Under the pieces are notes generated by a model. That model was not told the origin of the DNA and did no database searches. It worked only from the letters and a program-made list of their open reading frames with translations. Source: Myxococcaceae bacterium (GTDB taxonomy: Bacteria > Myxococcota_A > UBA9160). From it: a DNA stretch of 56,032 nt. The DNA is taken from positions 1 to 56,032 of the forward strand of contig CAJPFO010000280.1 of NCBI GenBank assembly GCA_905339255.1, written 5' to 3'. The translations under genes were made by a program, and so were the position numbers. This document shows, in pieces, positions 8,699 through 15,458 of this stretch; position 1 is the stretch's first letter; each line of letters opens with the position of its first letter.

Positions 8699-11050
8699 TC
8701 AGGGATCGACGGCCGTGCAGGGCGCTCCGCCGCAGACGTCGACGACGGCGCCTCCGGTCTTCATGAACTCGGACTTTTGGAGCTGGGCCTTGGCGTCGCG
8801 CCGCGGTGTCTCGTGGGGGTCGCGCCCGAACCCGTCCTCGGGGCGCGGCGGAATCACCGCCGTCGGAGGGGTCGGCGTGCCGCTGTCCCAGAGGATGATC
8901 GCCGATCCCGGCCAGGGCCCGGGCGGGAGCGGATCGATTCCGAAGTACGGCTGGTTGGTGGGGTCGTCGGGAAGCTGCTCGTCGTGGTGGCGTCCCGGCG
9001 CGAGTGCCGGCTGATGGATTCGTGCGCCCATCGTTCGCGCCTCGACCTCGGCCGAAACGTTCGCGACCTGGTGGTCTCCGAACGCGATGTGGAGCAGCAC
9101 GTTCTTCGCCGGCGTGTTCGGGTAGGGGTCGGCAGTCACGTGACTCGCATTGCCGTTCGCTTCGACGCGGTCCCAGAGCATCTGGAGCAGTGCGATGTTG
9201 AGCGAAGTCTCCGACGGGTCCCGATACGCGAAGCTCAGGAAGAGGAAGAAGTCGTCGAAGTCGACACTGCGGAGCAGGAGCGTGCTGTAGTTCATCCCCG
9301 TCACGCCGAGGACGACCTGCGTGTAGTCCTGCGCATACGCCGCGAGACCGCCACCGGCGATTCCGCCCTGGCTGTTTCCGTCGTAGAAGAGATCGCTCGT
9401 ATCGATGATGGGTCGGCCCTCGGTGTCCTGGAAGGCCGGGTTCGAGACGAACCCCTGGGGATGCTTCATGGCGCGGCCGAGGAAGAGGAAGTTCAGGAAT
9501 CCCTGATGCAGGCGATCGGGGAGCGTCGAGAAGAACGAGAGGTTCGAGAGGATCGTGAGCACGTTGTTGCGATCGTCCGACCCCATTCCGATCCACTTGG
9601 TCGCGCAATACACGAAGCGATGTGCCGTCGTGATGTCCCGGATGTTCCTGGCTCCGACCTCGCTTTCCGAGCCGAGAAGCCCGTGGCCGTAGAGGACGAT
9701 CCGGCCCGGATTCTCGGCGTCGACGGTTTCGGGAATCGTGCAGCGGAAATCGGCGATCCAATCCCGTGCGGGGTTCCTCACCGGTAGGCCGTCGGGGCCC
9801 CGTAGGAGGCTCGTTCCCGGCGCGCCATCCGCCGTCAGGTAGAGCGGCACCCGGATCGTTCCCTGGACGCGCCGGAAGGTCCGCGTCGAGCCGCCGGGGC
9901 CGTCGCCATCGGTGACGGGCGTGTTGGAGGTGACCGTGAACTCGGGCGCTCCCCCGCCGAGGCTCGCAAAGGCATCGTCGCGCATCGCGAGCATCCGCTC
10001 CGACATGTTGCGCTTCGAAATGATCGTGAAATCCCAGGCGAGCAGGAGATCGTCCCGGCCGACGCCGGCCCGGGCGAGGTCCGAGAAGATCCGCTCCATC
10101 CCGGGCCGCCGCGATTCGAACTCCGGCATGAACGTCGGCACGCGGTCCCGGTAGAGCCGGAAGGCGCGGCCCGGCGCGATCGGCTCGTCCGAGCCGGTGC
10201 GGAGGTTCCGCAGCGCAACCACGTAGCGCCGGCCCTTCTCGAGGTTCTTGCCCACGCGCAGGATCACGATGTCCGGGACGAACGGATCGGGCTCGGACCA
10301 GACGAGCCGTCGCTCGCCGGTCTCCGCGTCGATGAGGACGATGGGCGAGTCGGCCTCGAGCGAGCGGGCGACCTTCGTGATGAGGGGCGCCCCCGAGCGC
10401 GCGAGGTCGACACCGGGAAGCGTCGTGAGGAGCTTCGTGCCGGGGCTGAAACCGTCGTTGCGGTTGTACTCGGTCGGATCGGTGTGCAGTCCATCGAAGC
10501 GCGCCGGCATCGAGTCGAGCGCGAAGTTCACGCGACGGCCCGAGTCGGTGGTCGGGTCCTCGACGGTCAGGTGATCGCTCGGGAAGGGGAAGATGCACTT
10601 CGACGGATCGAGGAACTCGCAGCGGGCGAGCGTCGATTCGTCGATCCCGGGTTCGTACGAGACGGTGGACGACACGGTCGCGTCGGGCCGACCGTCGCCG
10701 TCACGATCGACCGAGACGAAGAGCGTGTTGCGTCCGAGCGAGAGATCCGCCGCTGCGAGCGCTCCCGTCGCGCTCGCGCCGTCGACCTCGAGCGCGACCG
10801 GGACGATCGCAGCAGCGGCTTCGTCGGAGCCGCGGAGCAGCCTCGCGCTCACGCTCCCGCCGTCACCGAGCGGAGCGCCGAGATCGATCGTGATCGGGAC
10901 GTCGCCGCTCGGATCGGCCTGCGAGAGGTCCGGCGGGCTCAGGATCGCGAGCGCCGGCGGATTGCAGCCCGAGAGCGAGGGAAGGATCGCGCAGCCGAGT
11001 GCGACGGCTGCGAGCCGCAGCGTGCGGGACACGGGGTCGTTCCGATTCAT
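8699..11050 (-). CDS. Large lipoprotein with an alpha/beta-hydrolase (lipase-like) domain
   Basis: 783 residues. The signal peptide ends in LSGC, so Cys29 should be lipidated. Residues about 35-132 form a beta-rich module ending SVDRDGDGRPDATVSSTVSY that is clearly homologous to the N-terminus of the ceramidase-like protein at 12826-14649. Further on, FPFPSDHLTVEDPTTDSGRR resembles the start of secreted bacterial lipases with an Ig-like N-terminal region. GHGLLGS (455-461) looks like an oxyanion loop, and GNSQGG puts Ser560 on a nucleophile elbow; GDH at 658-660 could supply acid and His. I infer a surface esterase or lipase of unknown substrate. Its ATG overlaps the stop of the PEP-CTERM gene (ATGA), making it the last gene of the run. 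Confidence 0.72.
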   Translation of the reverse strand: MNRNDPVSRTLRLAAVALGCAILPSLSGCNPPALAILSPPDLSQADPSGDVPITIDLGAPLGDGGSVSARLLRGSDEAAAAIVPVALEVDGASATGALAAADLSLGRNTLFVSVDRDGDGRPDATVSSTVSYEPGIDESTLARCEFLDPSKCIFPFPSDHLTVEDPTTDSGRRVNFALDSMPARFDGLHTDPTEYNRNDGFSPGTKLLTTLPGVDLARSGAPLITKVARSLEADSPIVLIDAETGERRLVWSEPDPFVPDIVILRVGKNLEKGRRYVVALRNLRTGSDEPIAPGRAFRLYRDRVPTFMPEFESRRPGMERIFSDLARAGVGRDDLLLAWDFTIISKRNMSERMLAMRDDAFASLGGGAPEFTVTSNTPVTDGDGPGGSTRTFRRVQGTIRVPLYLTADGAPGTSLLRGPDGLPVRNPARDWIADFRCTIPETVDAENPGRIVLYGHGLLGSESEVGARNIRDITTAHRFVYCATKWIGMGSDDRNNVLTILSNLSFFSTLPDRLHQGFLNFLFLGRAMKHPQGFVSNPAFQDTEGRPIIDTSDLFYDGNSQGGIAGGGLAAYAQDYTQVVLGVTGMNYSTLLLRSVDFDDFFLFLSFAYRDPSETSLNIALLQMLWDRVEANGNASHVTADPYPNTPAKNVLLHIAFGDHQVANVSAEVEARTMGARIHQPALAPGRHHDEQLPDDPTNQPYFGIDPLPPGPWPGSAIILWDSGTPTPPTAVIPPRPEDGFGRDPHETPRRDAKAQLQKSEFMKTGGAVVDVCGGAPCTAVDP

Positions 11051-11661
11051 GCCCGGCGCCCCATCCCACGGGCCATTCCCGAGAGGAGTGCGAGGCCGGC
11101 CGCCGCGAGCGCTGCCGTTCCGGGCTCGGGGACCGGCGTGAAGGTCGCGCTGTCGAGCCAGAAGCTGCTCGTCGAGACGCCATCGGTCGAGAGCCGGATC
11201 TCCGTGAAGAGACCGGCGATGAAGAGGGTCTCCTCGTGGTAGCCGCTATCGCCCACGTTCGAGATCGTCGAGGTCGTCGCGGCTTCGAGAGTGGCGCCCT
11301 GGAAGGCCTCGAGGAGGATCGGAAGCGTGACGCCGTCGTTCGAGATCGAGAGGACGTCGATCGAGAAGGAGGTCACCGGCACGCTGAAGGTGAAGACGAT
11401 GTCCGGCGCGTAGGTGTTGAGCAGGCCGTTCGTCCCCGAGGTCGCGAAGGTCCCCGCGGCGGGAATCCCCGTCAAGGTTTCGAGGTCGGCCTCGTCGAGC
11501 ACGAGGGCGGTGCTCACGGAGACGCCGGGAAGCGACGCGATCGCCACGTCGCTCGGGGAGGCGAGATCGTCGAACCCGACGTGGGTGGCGTCGGCAGCGG
11601 GTGGGGCGAGGAGCGCGAAGAGCAGCGCGATCACGGCAGCCGGAAGGCGAGCGGACGGCAT
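11047..11661 (-). CDS. PEP-CTERM sorting-signal protein
   Basis: 204 residues: N-terminal signal peptide (about 1-25, ending ADA), a beta-rich extracellular body with no recognised enzyme motif, and a C-terminal VPEPGTAAL, hydrophobic stretch and GRRA basic end. That tail is the PEP-CTERM signal cut by an exosortase (EpsH/XrtA type). Such proteins are exported and associate with exopolysaccharide or the outer surface; no exosortase gene is in this window. AGGAGG lies 10 nt before the ATG. Just upstream is the bipartite element at 11682-11715, so this gene may have its own promoter inside the run. It overlaps the next gene by 4 nt. Confidence 0.86.
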   Translation of the reverse strand: MPSARLPAAVIALLFALLAPPAADATHVGFDDLASPSDVAIASLPGVSVSTALVLDEADLETLTGIPAAGTFATSGTNGLLNTYAPDIVFTFSVPVTSFSIDVLSISNDGVTLPILLEAFQGATLEAATTSTISNVGDSGYHEETLFIAGLFTEIRLSTDGVSTSSFWLDSATFTPVPEPGTAALAAAGLALLSGMARGMGRRA

Positions 11662-11681: not shown

Positions 11682-11715
11682 GGAGGAAGTGGCGTGCCGA
11701 TGGCGCTTGTGTCAG
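11682..11715 (-). promoter_or_regulatory. Bipartite promoter-like element, copy A
   Basis: Read on the minus strand: CTGACACA (11715-11708), 15 nt, CCACTTCCTCC (11692-11682), ending 20 bp before the PEP-CTERM ATG at 11661. The sequence and spacing are identical to copy B at 14712-14745. The TGA inside CTGACACA is also the stop codon of the preceding HEAT-like gene. CTGACA and CCACTT are 17 bp apart, the spacing of a -35/-10 promoter, but the downstream half does not resemble a sigma-70 or sigma-54 element. Confidence 0.55.
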
Positions 11716-12833
11716 GGAAAGCCCGCGCCTTGCCCCGGGCCCGGCCGGGCCGAGGCGCCCCCTGCCCGGCGCAGCTCGGCCTTCGCGAGCGGTGCGAGCG
11801 GGCTCCCGTCGCGGGCGGCCTCGCGCTCGAGGATCGACGCGGCCTGCGCGGTTCCGAGCGCCCCGATCGCGCGGAGCACGGCCCTCGCGACACCCGGATC
11901 CGGATCGTCGAGGTGTCGAGCGAGCGCCGCTACTTGCGCAGCGTGCCAGGGCCAGGCGAGCGCATACGCCGCTTCTCGGCGCAGCGCCGGATCCGGGCTC
12001 GAGAGGGAGGTGGCGATCCACGCCGAGAGGGCCGGGTCGTCGAGCGCTCCGAGCGCCCGGATGAGTTCGAGCCTCTCGCCGGGCTCGAGGGGGGATTGCG
12101 CGAGCCCGCGAAGTGCCGCCCGCGAGTCGAATCCGGGAGCCCCGTCGAGAAGCCTCGCGAGCGCCACCCGCGTCGTCACCGGGAGATTCGTGGCCACGGA
12201 GACCTGCGCCGCGAAGGGCGCCACGTCGGCGGGTGTCTCGAAGAAGCCCGGGGCCTTCGCCGCGCGAGCGAGCTCCGCGACGGCATCGGCCCGCAGCGGC
12301 GAGACTCCGGAGCGCAGGTTCCCGGCGACGAGCCGCCGGAGCGCGGCCGCGGCCTCCGGCCCCTTCGCGTCGAGGAGCCTGCGGTATTCGCGAGCGGCGT
12401 CGCGAACGCACGCTCCGCTTTCGCCGTCGAGCGCCCATTCCTGCCCCGCCTCCTGGATCGTGAAATAGGGGAATCGGGAGGCGAGGCCCGCGAACTCGGG
12501 GCGCTTCTCGGTACGCTCGAGGAACAGGAGCGCGCGCTCGCCCTCGCGCCAGCCCGGCATCCCCTCGGCATGGGGAAAGACGTCGAAGCGAACGGGCGTC
12601 GGAACGCCCGCGATCGTCTCGAGCGTTCGGACCGTGAAGTACTCCTGCCGATCCGAGCCGTCGCTCGCGCTCCAGATCCGGAGCGGCGACACGAACTCGA
12701 CGACGACGGCCGCGTCGGAACTCTGGAGGAGCTGGCGCAGGCCCGCACGCTGGACGACCACGTGGGCGCCAGCGCTCGACGCAGCGGTGAGGACGCCGAA
12801 CGCGACGAGCGCTCCGAGCCTCCGTCTACTCAT
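11712..12833 (-). CDS. Exported HEAT-repeat-like protein
   Basis: 373 residues. A Sec signal peptide (residues 1-23, ending AGA) is followed by a beta-rich domain (about 25-130) containing GERALLFLER, then helical repeats from about 215 to 350. DDPALSAWIATSLSSPDPAL, REAAYALA and DDPDPGVARAVLRAIGAL have the spacing of HEAT/PBS-lyase repeats. These usually act as protein-binding scaffolds, here probably in the periplasm. The ATG overlaps the end of the upstream ceramidase-like gene by 8 nt and lacks a good ribosome site, which fits translational coupling. No function can be assigned beyond scaffold-like. Confidence 0.77.
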   Translation of the reverse strand: MSRRRLGALVAFGVLTAASSAGAHVVVQRAGLRQLLQSSDAAVVVEFVSPLRIWSASDGSDRQEYFTVRTLETIAGVPTPVRFDVFPHAEGMPGWREGERALLFLERTEKRPEFAGLASRFPYFTIQEAGQEWALDGESGACVRDAAREYRRLLDAKGPEAAAALRRLVAGNLRSGVSPLRADAVAELARAAKAPGFFETPADVAPFAAQVSVATNLPVTTRVALARLLDGAPGFDSRAALRGLAQSPLEPGERLELIRALGALDDPALSAWIATSLSSPDPALRREAAYALAWPWHAAQVAALARHLDDPDPGVARAVLRAIGALGTAQAASILEREAARDGSPLAPLAKAELRRAGGASARPGPGQGAGFP

Positions 12834-14649
12834 GCAGGAGATCGAGAAGCCCGGTCATGGCCGCCTGGAGCTGCGGATCGGCCATGTCTCCGATGTTGTT
12901 GAGGAAGACCGTTCCGCAATCGAGCGTCGCGGCGAGCGGGCAGGAATCCTCGTCGCCCTGCACGACGAAGAGCCAGCACTGGTGGCAAGTGGGGTTGAAC
13001 TTGGCCGCCGGCATCTGGTAGCCGATCTCGTCGTTGCCGAGGCCGGCCACGAAGCGATGCTCGCTCTTCGTCATCTGCGAGCGGTAGATGTCGCCGATCT
13101 GGGGATCGAGCTCGTTCGGGGTGACGGCGATCGTGGCATTCCCGATCCGGATCGCGTTCACCTCGGTCGTGATCGTCCGCGTGCCATCGGGCTTCGACTC
13201 GAAAGCCCGTCTTCCGAAGACCCCCTGCGTCCCCGTGATGATGAAGAACGGATTCTGGACGAGCACCTCGAAAGGCCCCGCACGGAGCGCTTCGATCGGC
13301 GGCGCGGCATCCCAGGCAGCCTGCGCATCGAGCGCCGCGGTTGCCCGCTCGGCGAGCTTCTCTCCGAACGCCCGGGCGATCTCGAAGGTCCGTCTCGGAA
13401 GAGGCTGGCCGTTCGGGCCCGCGATGTCGACATCGAGCGGGCCCTGCAGGACTCCGAGGTCGGCGCTCATGTAGATCGCCATCCCGCCGTAGCGCGCTTC
13501 GATCGCCTCGCGCATGAAGTGCGGAAAATCCGAGGTGATGAGCGTATTCGAGGAACCGAGGCTCTCGGGATGGCTCGCGAAGTTCACGAGCGTCGCGATC
13601 GTGGCGCCCTCGCCGCCGCGCTCGCGGAGCTGGAGCACCGGGACGCTCGGGTTCGTGATCTCGCCGGGATCCCCGGCGACGTGGAGCGGCCCCGGCGGGC
13701 CCGTGTACGGCTCGAAGGGCTTCTCGCGATCGACGAGGAGGAAGGGGAGGGTGAGCTCCCGGAGCACCTCTCCGTCCGCGACGAGGTCGGGGTACGGCGC
13801 AAGCGAGGCGCCCTGCGTGGTGCCCGTCGCGAAGCGGATCTCGGCGGGCTCGAGCGCGAGCGCCGCCTCGGCGATGCACTCGGCGACGCTCTGGTTCACG
13901 AAGTCGACGTAGCCGAGATCGACCCCCGGCGTGAGCTCGTCGCGACCCCAGAGGCCCATCGTATCGGGCCCTTCGTGCTGGTGTGTGCTCGAGACCGTGA
14001 TGCTGTCGAGGCCGAGCGCGGGGTCGACCAGGCTCCGGATGGTCTGGACTTCGTTGTGGAAGTAACCGATCAGATCGAGCACCACGATCGCGATCCGCTT
14101 GCCGCGCGATTCGAGGACGATCCCGCGCGCCCAGAGGTCGTCGTGCACGCCCGTCGCGCGCCGATCGTTCGAGAAGCCCGCGAGGTAGATGGGGTCGGTG
14201 TGATTCACGCCGACGACGGGAGTGATCTTGCGTTTGCACGCCGCGGCGCGCAGCGCCGAATCCCAGGTGAAGGTCGATGAGAGCACGCTCTCGGGGCGAC
14301 CGTCGCCGTCGCGGTCGATGCTCACGAAGAGCGTGTTGCGGCCGGCCGAGAGGTCCTCCGGGCCGAGGGCCGCGGTGGCGAGATCGCCCTCGACCGCGAG
14401 GTCCACTTCCGCGATCGAGGTCGGCGGGAAGTCGACCCCGCCGAGGAGTCTCGCCCGCACCGAGCCGCCGGGCCCGAGCGGCTCCCCGAGGGATACGCGG
14501 ACTTCTGCCTCGCCGTCCGGAGGCAGGGTCGATCCGTCCATCGGGCTCGAGATCCCGGCCGAGCCCCCAACGCACGAGATTCCGAGCGTTCCGAGCGCAC
14601 CCGCCGCAACGAGCGCCAGCCATCCGACTCCCCGCAGGTTCGACGCCAT
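12826..14649 (-). CDS. Neutral/alkaline ceramidase-like exported protein
   Basis: 607 residues from ATG 14649. A signal-peptide-like start with Cys26 (GISC) could be lipidated, though the lipobox is weak. Residues about 32-130 are the module shared with the lipoprotein at 8699-11050, including NTLFVSIDRDGDGRPESVLS. From about 140 the sequence follows the neutral ceramidase amidohydrolase domain: GVNHTDPIYLAGF, RRATGVHDDLWARGIVLE, IVVLDLIGYF and VSSTHQHEGPDTMGLWG. The His-x-His of STHQHEGPD matches the zinc-binding loop. Later ceramidase elements (NFASHPESLGSSN, ITSDFPHFMRE) are also present. Family members cleave the amide of ceramide, but bacterial relatives differ in substrate. It is the first gene of the exported run and divergent from a PEP-CTERM gene. 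Confidence 0.82.
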   Translation of the reverse strand: MASNLRGVGWLALVAAGALGTLGISCVGGSAGISSPMDGSTLPPDGEAEVRVSLGEPLGPGGSVRARLLGGVDFPPTSIAEVDLAVEGDLATAALGPEDLSAGRNTLFVSIDRDGDGRPESVLSSTFTWDSALRAAACKRKITPVVGVNHTDPIYLAGFSNDRRATGVHDDLWARGIVLESRGKRIAIVVLDLIGYFHNEVQTIRSLVDPALGLDSITVSSTHQHEGPDTMGLWGRDELTPGVDLGYVDFVNQSVAECIAEAALALEPAEIRFATGTTQGASLAPYPDLVADGEVLRELTLPFLLVDREKPFEPYTGPPGPLHVAGDPGEITNPSVPVLQLRERGGEGATIATLVNFASHPESLGSSNTLITSDFPHFMREAIEARYGGMAIYMSADLGVLQGPLDVDIAGPNGQPLPRRTFEIARAFGEKLAERATAALDAQAAWDAAPPIEALRAGPFEVLVQNPFFIITGTQGVFGRRAFESKPDGTRTITTEVNAIRIGNATIAVTPNELDPQIGDIYRSQMTKSEHRFVAGLGNDEIGYQMPAAKFNPTCHQCWLFVVQGDEDSCPLAATLDCGTVFLNNIGDMADPQLQAAMTGLLDLLHE

Positions 14650-14675
14650 GGGCCTGGTCTCCGCACGCCCCCGCC

Positions 14676-14707
14676 GGAAGTGGCGTCCGGGCGTCGCATT
14701 GTGGCAT
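14676..14707 (-). promoter_or_regulatory. Bipartite promoter-like element, degenerate copy C
   Basis: On the minus strand ATGCCACA (14707-14700), 16 nt, CCACTTCC (14683-14676), ending 26 bp before the ATG of the ceramidase-like gene. It matches the CTGACACA / CCACTTCCTCC pair in 6 of 8 and 8 of 11 positions, with spacing one base longer. It is weaker than copies A and B, but lies at the same distance from a start codon. Confidence 0.35.
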
Positions 14708-14711
14708 GGCG

Positions 14712-14745
14712 CTGACACATCTGGGGCCTCGAGACCACTTCCTCC
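14712..14745 (+). promoter_or_regulatory. Bipartite promoter-like element, copy B
   Basis: CTGACACA (14712-14719), 15 nt, CCACTTCCTCC (14735-14745), ending 26 bp before the GTG of the PEP-CTERM gene at 14772. All 19 fixed bases and the 15-nt gap equal copy A, while the spacer sequences differ. An overlapping TGGCAT-N5-TGACA at 14702-14717 resembles a sigma-54 site but lacks the GC of the -12 element. Confidence 0.55.
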
Positions 14746-14771: not shown

Positions 14772-15458
14772 GTGCGCATCAAGAAGACCTGGATGGCGGT
14801 GGCGGCGGGTGTGGCAGGGCTCTTGCTCGTCGGGGCCGGGACGGCTTCGGCGGCCTCGATGCCCGTGAACGGTCGGGATACGCGCGTCACGGTGACGGGC
14901 GCGGACGAGCTCGGTGACCTCGGGATCACGCTCTCGTCGAACGCCCCGGTCGATGGCGTCGGGCGCCTGGTCTTCGAGATCACGGGCGGAATGTTCGACC
15001 TGTTCTTCCTCGAGGGCACGCTCGAGCACGCGGCCGACCTCGGCGTCACGCTGAGCTCGGGCGGCACCACGCTCGCGCTCGACGAGTTCGTGATCGACAC
15101 GACGGGCCTCGAGTTCCTGCTCTTCGGCACGGCGACGATCTCGGACGGAGTCGGCCCCGACGTGAGCATCCCGGGAGTGCCGCTCTTCACGCTCACGTTC
15201 TGCAACGCGCCTGCGATCTTCGGCCCCTGCATCAACAACGACGGGAGCTACCAGATCGACGGCTACGGTCTGCTCGTGACGGCCGACGCCGCGTCCGCGA
15301 TCGGCGACGTCTTCGGCGTCGACGCGAGCGGCCTCGTAGACTCGCAATTCGGAATCGCGAACATCGCGATCACCTTCGTGCCCGAGCCCGGAACGCTCGT
15401 GCTCGCGAGCGCCGGCCTCGTCGGCCTCGCGGCGTCGCGGAGGCGACGCAGCGCGTAG
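14772..15458 (+). CDS. PEP-CTERM sorting-signal protein
   Basis: 228 residues from GTG 14772, with GGAGG about 7 nt upstream. Signal peptide of about 28 residues (KKTWMAVAAGVAG..., ending ASA), then a beta-rich extracellular domain of unknown role. The C-terminal sorting signal is VPEPGTLVL, a hydrophobic helix and SRRRRSA. The body has a single disulfide-capable pair (FCNAP and GPCINN). Divergent from the ceramidase-like operon, with 122 bp between the starts, which hold elements B and C. A strong terminator follows at 15498, so this is a one-gene transcript. Confidence 0.87.
   Translation: MRIKKTWMAVAAGVAGLLLVGAGTASAASMPVNGRDTRVTVTGADELGDLGITLSSNAPVDGVGRLVFEITGGMFDLFFLEGTLEHAADLGVTLSSGGTTLALDEFVIDTTGLEFLLFGTATISDGVGPDVSIPGVPLFTLTFCNAPAIFGPCINNDGSYQIDGYGLLVTADAASAIGDVFGVDASGLVDSQFGIANIAITFVPEPGTLVLASAGLVGLAASRRRRSA

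Follow-up and report, generated by a model that had tools for sequence, protein, structure and literature searches.

A two-part element at the locus

The window analysed here is a stretch of 56,032 nucleotides from a Myxococcaceae bacterium whose draft genome (G000) comprises 4.28 Mb; it corresponds to contig C279. It carries two PEP-CTERM genes: gene A, on the minus strand (11047..11661), encodes a protein of 204 aa with a signal peptide and a VPEPGT...RR tail, and gene B, on the plus strand (14772..15458), encodes a protein of 228 aa matching PF07589. Between them, on the minus strand, lie a ceramidase-like lipoprotein gene (12826..14649; PF04734 N-terminal domain, lipobox LGISC) and a gene that overlaps its end (11712..12833). 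The original prediction was that a bipartite element of 19 fixed bases occurs here in two identical copies with unrelated spacers, each close ahead of a PEP-CTERM start. Both copies were found (minus 11682-11715 and plus 14712-14745), their spacers are unrelated and the genes downstream are real PEP-CTERM genes. The window contained no further match to the 19-base element at up to three mismatches, and 100 shuffles gave no match at all. The two-part element at this locus is real.

The claim that all 19 bases belong to the element failed in part. When many sites are compared, conservation does not extend to the first C, to the A that follows TGACAC or to the final TCC, and the core is TGACAC-N16-CCACTTCC, which we used as the working consensus together with the degenerate form YGMCAC-N16/17-CCACYHCC. 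Defined in this way, the predicted promoter element of gene A spans 11685..11714 (minus strand), with a -35-like box at 11709-11714 and a -10-like box at 11685-11692. The ATG at 11661 follows 23 nt past the element, and these 23 nt include the ribosome-binding site GGAGGA, implying that RNA would start a few bases after CCACTTCC; the two boxes would then fall near -10 (CCACTTCC) and near -33 (TGACAC). The predicted element of gene B spans 14713..14742 (plus strand; -35-like box 14713-14718, -10-like box 14735-14742), and its GTG start at 14772 lies 29 nt further on. A weaker copy had also been proposed ahead of the ceramidase-like gene; this held, the site being rewritten as TGCCAC-N17-CCACTTCC (14676..14706, minus strand), divergent from that of gene B and 26 nt from the start of the first gene of the ceramidase-like operon. 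In the sister species (G001) the arrangement of genes A and B is retained, with identical boxes and diverged spacers at both PEP-CTERM sites, and the divergent weak site is conserved as TGCCAC-N16-CCACTT, with N16 instead of the window's N17.

Two features of the layout were observed in passing. The TGA stop codon of the gene at 11712..12833 is also the TGA of gene A's TGACAC box (11709-11714). At 14701-14718 the gene B and ceramidase-like elements point away from each other, with only 6 bp separating their -35-like boxes, so that simultaneous occupation of the two promoters is hardly possible.

Gene association and spread across the order

The scan that had been suggested, for a genome-wide link to PEP-CTERM genes, was run, and sites were found to be concentrated before such genes and not spread over coding DNA. 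The window's genome has 57 PEP-CTERM genes above the Pfam cut-off. YGMCAC-N16-CCACYHCC has 18 exact sites in this genome against three for the reversed pattern, and 11 of the 18 lie 23-89 nt ahead of a PEP-CTERM gene start (binomial P ~4e-31). Seen from the genes, a site is present in 19/56 PEP-CTERM upstream regions compared with 3.9% of random windows, and a clear site is missing from around two thirds of all PEP-CTERM genes. The spacing is equally specific: CAC-N16-CCAC occurs in 17/56 PEP-CTERM upstream regions and each other gap from 8 to 26 in none to three, an N17 spacer being found at two PEP-CTERM genes in addition to the window's divergent site. The association was replicated in relatives, as 21 of 39 sites in four related genomes are followed by a same-strand PF07589 gene by our own count. 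It was this gap profile of CAC-N-CCAC that singled the motif out; ranked by raw number, a count of gaps and words did not place it first because GC-rich words dominate. A loose genome scan allowing three mismatches was uninformative, its reversed control scoring more matches. Start codons were picked by rule, and the genomes are drafts.

Within the window's order of uncultured Myxococcota, 80 genomes were scanned for the strict form TGACAC-N16-CCACTTCC; 36 of them have it, at 63 sites in total against one site for the reversed pattern. A further 299 genomes from elsewhere in the phylum gave a single site. These cross-genome tests are uncorrected for shared descent. When 52 strict sites were inspected, 19 preceded PEP-CTERM genes (16 by profile and three, L181, L194 and L195, by eye) and 14 preceded comM/YifB genes, in 14 genomes. 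Others preceded exported proteins (a GH10 protein, a G8-domain protein and a DUF6345 protein) or a conserved protein of 93 aa. The sites, their spacing, their association with genes and their conservation are thus shown, and reading the boxes as a promoter is an inference. The original prediction of a sigma-type promoter serving a surface-protein regulon was supported, with no transcription start mapped, and the regulon is inferred to be broader than surface proteins, as the element also stands at comM and at sigma genes.

Two simpler explanations can be set against these data. The first is chance, or duplication of upstream regions along with their genes. The presence of two PEP-CTERM genes within one window speaks for it, but the copies have neither spacer nor flanks in common, and dozens of genomes carry these boxes at genes of unrelated kinds. 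We regard this explanation as all but excluded. The second is a housekeeping sigma-70 promoter, for which CTGACA matches the -35 hexamer TTGACA at five of six positions and the 17 bp spacer fits. Against it, the downstream half, CCACTT, is no TATAAT box, and each genome has only 0-6 copies of the strict element, which is nearly confined to one order; this reading is very unlikely. The claim that the downstream half is neither TATAAT nor of sigma-54 type held: a sigma-54 box (TGGCAC-N5-TTGC, score >=9) was found in 0/56 PEP-CTERM upstream regions of the window's genome.

Candidate sigma factors and the promoter reading

The window's genome has 17 sigma-70 family region-2 matches. The element precedes the genes of two ECF sigma factors, sigma2 (G000:C108:1453-2085; 211 aa) and sigma3 (G000:C219:11113-11685; 191 aa), in orthologues across the order. 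Upstream of sigma2 it takes the variant form YGCCAC-N16-CCACYTA, and GMCAC-N16-nCAC occurs 19 times in 30 upstream regions (other gaps, 0-1). At sigma3, TGACAC-N17-nCAC occurs 44 times in 60 upstream regions; other gaps at the sigma genes occur 0-5 times, and in random windows of the same loci these gap patterns were met in 1-2%. These sigma-gene footprints are shown. As the sigma3 promoters have N17 and most others N16, one sigma factor may not serve both. Sigma3 is found in 70/80 genomes of the order, almost always in single copy, and none was detected at E <1e-40 in the genomes searched outside it; its named relatives come from uncultured Myxococcota or 'Deltaproteobacteria' genomes, including isolate UBA9160.

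We also compared the distribution of the sigma factors with that of the strict site. Genomes lacking both sigma2 and sigma3 had a strict site in 0/8 cases, compared with 36/72 for the remaining genomes of the order (Fisher p = 0.007). This test is not fully independent, given shared ancestry and the small size of several of the eight genomes without sigma2 and sigma3. Strict sites were found without sigma2 in seven genomes (G003, G007, G008, G015, G021, G032 and G050), all of which keep sigma3, and without sigma3 in two; some genomes are incomplete.

ECF41 promoters, TGTCACA-n16-CGTC with a spacer of 16 +/- 1 bp, lie upstream of the sigma gene itself. ECF promoters typically, though not always, combine a -35 box containing AAC with a -10 box containing CGT, the ECF41 -35 box being a departure (PMC3426412). 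Two boxes 16 +/- 1 bp apart are likewise found here (N16 at PEP-CTERM genes, comM and sigma2; N17 at sigma3), and a version of the element stands, by sequence alone, upstream of both the sigma2 and the sigma3 gene. The AAC and CGT signature is not met, TGMCAC and CCAC standing in its place. Thus, the claim that the element is not of a common ECF type held for its sequence, whereas its 16-17 bp geometry and its position before two ECF sigma genes indicate an ECF promoter. From sequence alone, with no transcription start mapped, we consider it likely that the element is the core promoter of an order-specific ECF regulon; its -35/-10 pair would be new, with sigma2, sigma3 or both as the likely cognates. 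RNA polymerase carrying either or both would bind TGACAC as the -35-like and CCACTTCC as the -10-like box, and transcription would begin just downstream of CCACTTCC. In this family the outcome would be short leaders into PEP-CTERM genes and into operons for exported proteins or lipoproteins; order-wide, the same type of promoter would also drive comM, and the versions ahead of the sigma2 and sigma3 genes would provide autoregulation. The choice of the reading sigma factor is inferred solely from footprints and co-occurrence, with no protein-DNA contact data.

An alternative is that the element is bound by a dimeric activator or repressor and overlaps a core promoter that escaped detection. In its favour, the boxes are partly similar, YGMCAC and NRCCAC lying 20 bp apart in the consensus, and at two sites (on C263 and C6) GCCACTTCC is repeated almost perfectly in direct orientation, the copies 20-21 bp apart. 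However, the 20-30 nt to the start codon leave an activator no space for a downstream promoter, the two boxes keep consistent differences (TGAC in one and CCAC in the other, with TTCC after the second box only), and an element of fixed spacing precedes ECF sigma genes of exactly the same order. We therefore judge this reading unlikely.

Within the ECF reading, a variant that does not exclude it is that sigma1 or another paralogue, instead of sigma2 or sigma3, reads the element; in that case the copies ahead of the sigma2 and sigma3 genes would reflect a cascade and not autoregulation. The sigma1 gene lies directly upstream of sigma2, and sigma1-3 have in common a region-4 helix, S-x-D-A-[VI]-[KR]-[SA]-[NS]-L-Y-R, that is absent from the other compared sigma factors of the window's genome. 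The ECF element was searched for in sigma1 upstream regions and not found. Instead, the textbook sigma-54 promoter sequence TGGCAY-N5-TTGCT, with no more than one of its 11 fixed positions mismatched, was present in 13/18 orthologues checked, compared with 0.4% of random windows; the orthologue L259, which reaches the same sigma-54 score with a weaker -12 box, is not included in the 13. Sigma1 is thus likely to be made from a sigma-54 promoter, again an inference, and sigma1 could stand at the top of a cascade. The distinct variant at the sigma2 gene also favours sigma1 as the reader. Against this, the seven genomes without sigma2 that keep sigma3 still have strict sites, although the presence of sigma1 in each is unsettled. 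Reading by sigma1 remains possible. These sigma-54 promoters were seen about 150-360 nt upstream of the sigma1 start (L131:about 452-467, G000:C108; L237-L256).

Retaining sigma2 and/or sigma3 as the readers, we propose as a hypothesis that sigma-54 would act on sigma1, that sigma1 could switch on sigma2, and that sigma2 and/or sigma3 would then read the PEP-CTERM and comM promoters; this cascade is inferred. With sigma-54 one step higher, at sigma1, the missing sigma-54 box at the PEP-CTERM genes would be explained. The proteobacterial PEP-CTERM box consists of a sigma-54 promoter (-24/-12) and a PrsR enhancer motif (PMC1569441; RpoN-dependent pepA, PMC9850573). Both systems have an upstream element common to many PEP-CTERM genes of one genome, implying co-regulation, but the Myxococcota element is of -35/-10 type with a link to ECF factors, and sigma-54 enters only at sigma1. 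An NtrC-type regulator beside the exosortase cluster (L143:304-1719, G000:C61) scored 402 against the PrsR TIGR02915 cut-off of 502.6.

The ECF41 -35 box TGTCACA is the nearest known sequence we found to TGACAC/TGCCAC, and both promoters are bipartite with a 16 +/- 1 bp spacer. The third -35 base differs, however, and the -10 box is CCAC(TTCC) and not CGTC; Pfam recognises only regions 2 and 4 in sigma2 and no ECF41 C-terminal domain, and sigma3, judged by its length alone (191 aa), has no C-terminal extension. Like RpoE-type autoregulated ECF factors, the present system places its own promoter type before the sigma gene and has an envelope-rich regulon, but both the AAC of their -35 box and the CGT of their -10 box are missing here, and no recognised anti-sigma gene was found adjoining sigma2.

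Several observations concern the sigma loci themselves. In most genomes sigma2 is followed by a protein of 65-85 aa (ELxEFLxAD...DPxFKExLRxxLW; L236:2108-2362 and orthologues) with no Pfam match, and in G007 a strict site lies ahead of it; it is a possible sigma2 partner or anti-sigma candidate. The sigma3 upstream regions (L266, L326-L384) have an extra conserved GGTGACA-TTTTT adjoining TTGACACC, and some contain a palindrome, GTCACCGGTGAC, perhaps an operator. Sigma factors near exosortase genes were searched for and none was found. An ECF gene on C250 with a zinc-finger anti-sigma was considered as the cognate and dropped, as the nearby site precedes a transporter gene and the region-4 helix is of the usual type.

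comM, its leader and further targets

The gene which we take to be comM, the helicase gene of natural transformation, was recognised by its conserved N-terminal ChlI-type domain (PF13541) and by what is generally known of the YifB/ComM family. The N16 element occurs 24 times in 30 comM upstream regions, and the clear losses (L298 in G024 and L304 in G013) are both in genomes without sigma2 and sigma3. The comM leader forms two predicted hairpins beginning ~5-20 nt from the box, and 10/19 predicted pairs covary, both sides having changed with pairing kept. A leader beginning this close to the box is indirect support for a transcription start just past it, as is the short room to the start codon at the PEP-CTERM genes. 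This leader, seen at L303:1387-1468 and at 15 orthologous loci (alignment A3), is possibly a new cis-regulatory RNA or attenuator; no Rfam match was found in the window, the comM loci or the sigma loci.

A bolder reading, against which we lean slightly, is that an order-specific cascade from sigma-54 through sigma1 to sigma2/sigma3, with a new -35/-10 specificity, jointly controls comM and exosortase-sorted surface proteins. If true, with comM controlled via a new structured leader RNA, DNA uptake would be coupled to remodelling of the cell surface, and the tie between surface proteins and comM would predict when such bacteria might take up DNA. Environmental bacteria make PEP-CTERM proteins in large numbers, and the paper that defined the proteobacterial sigma-54 box did not settle how they are regulated where that box is absent (PMC1569441). 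No paper combining 'PEP-CTERM' and 'ECF sigma factor' was found in the literature searched; coverage was incomplete and an earlier description is not excluded. One large uncultured lineage now has a testable promoter, a target list and two named candidate sigma factors, and the inferred pairing of promoter and sigma factor would offer a distinct specificity.

Two further targets are worth recording. In three families of the order (L190, L222 and L184) the conserved protein of 93 aa comes immediately after the element, and the L190 copy, which was searched, has no Pfam match. At L005 (G000:C85:50451-51600), a GH10 gene under the element stops just before a PEP-CTERM tail in another frame, possibly a frameshift or a separate small gene.
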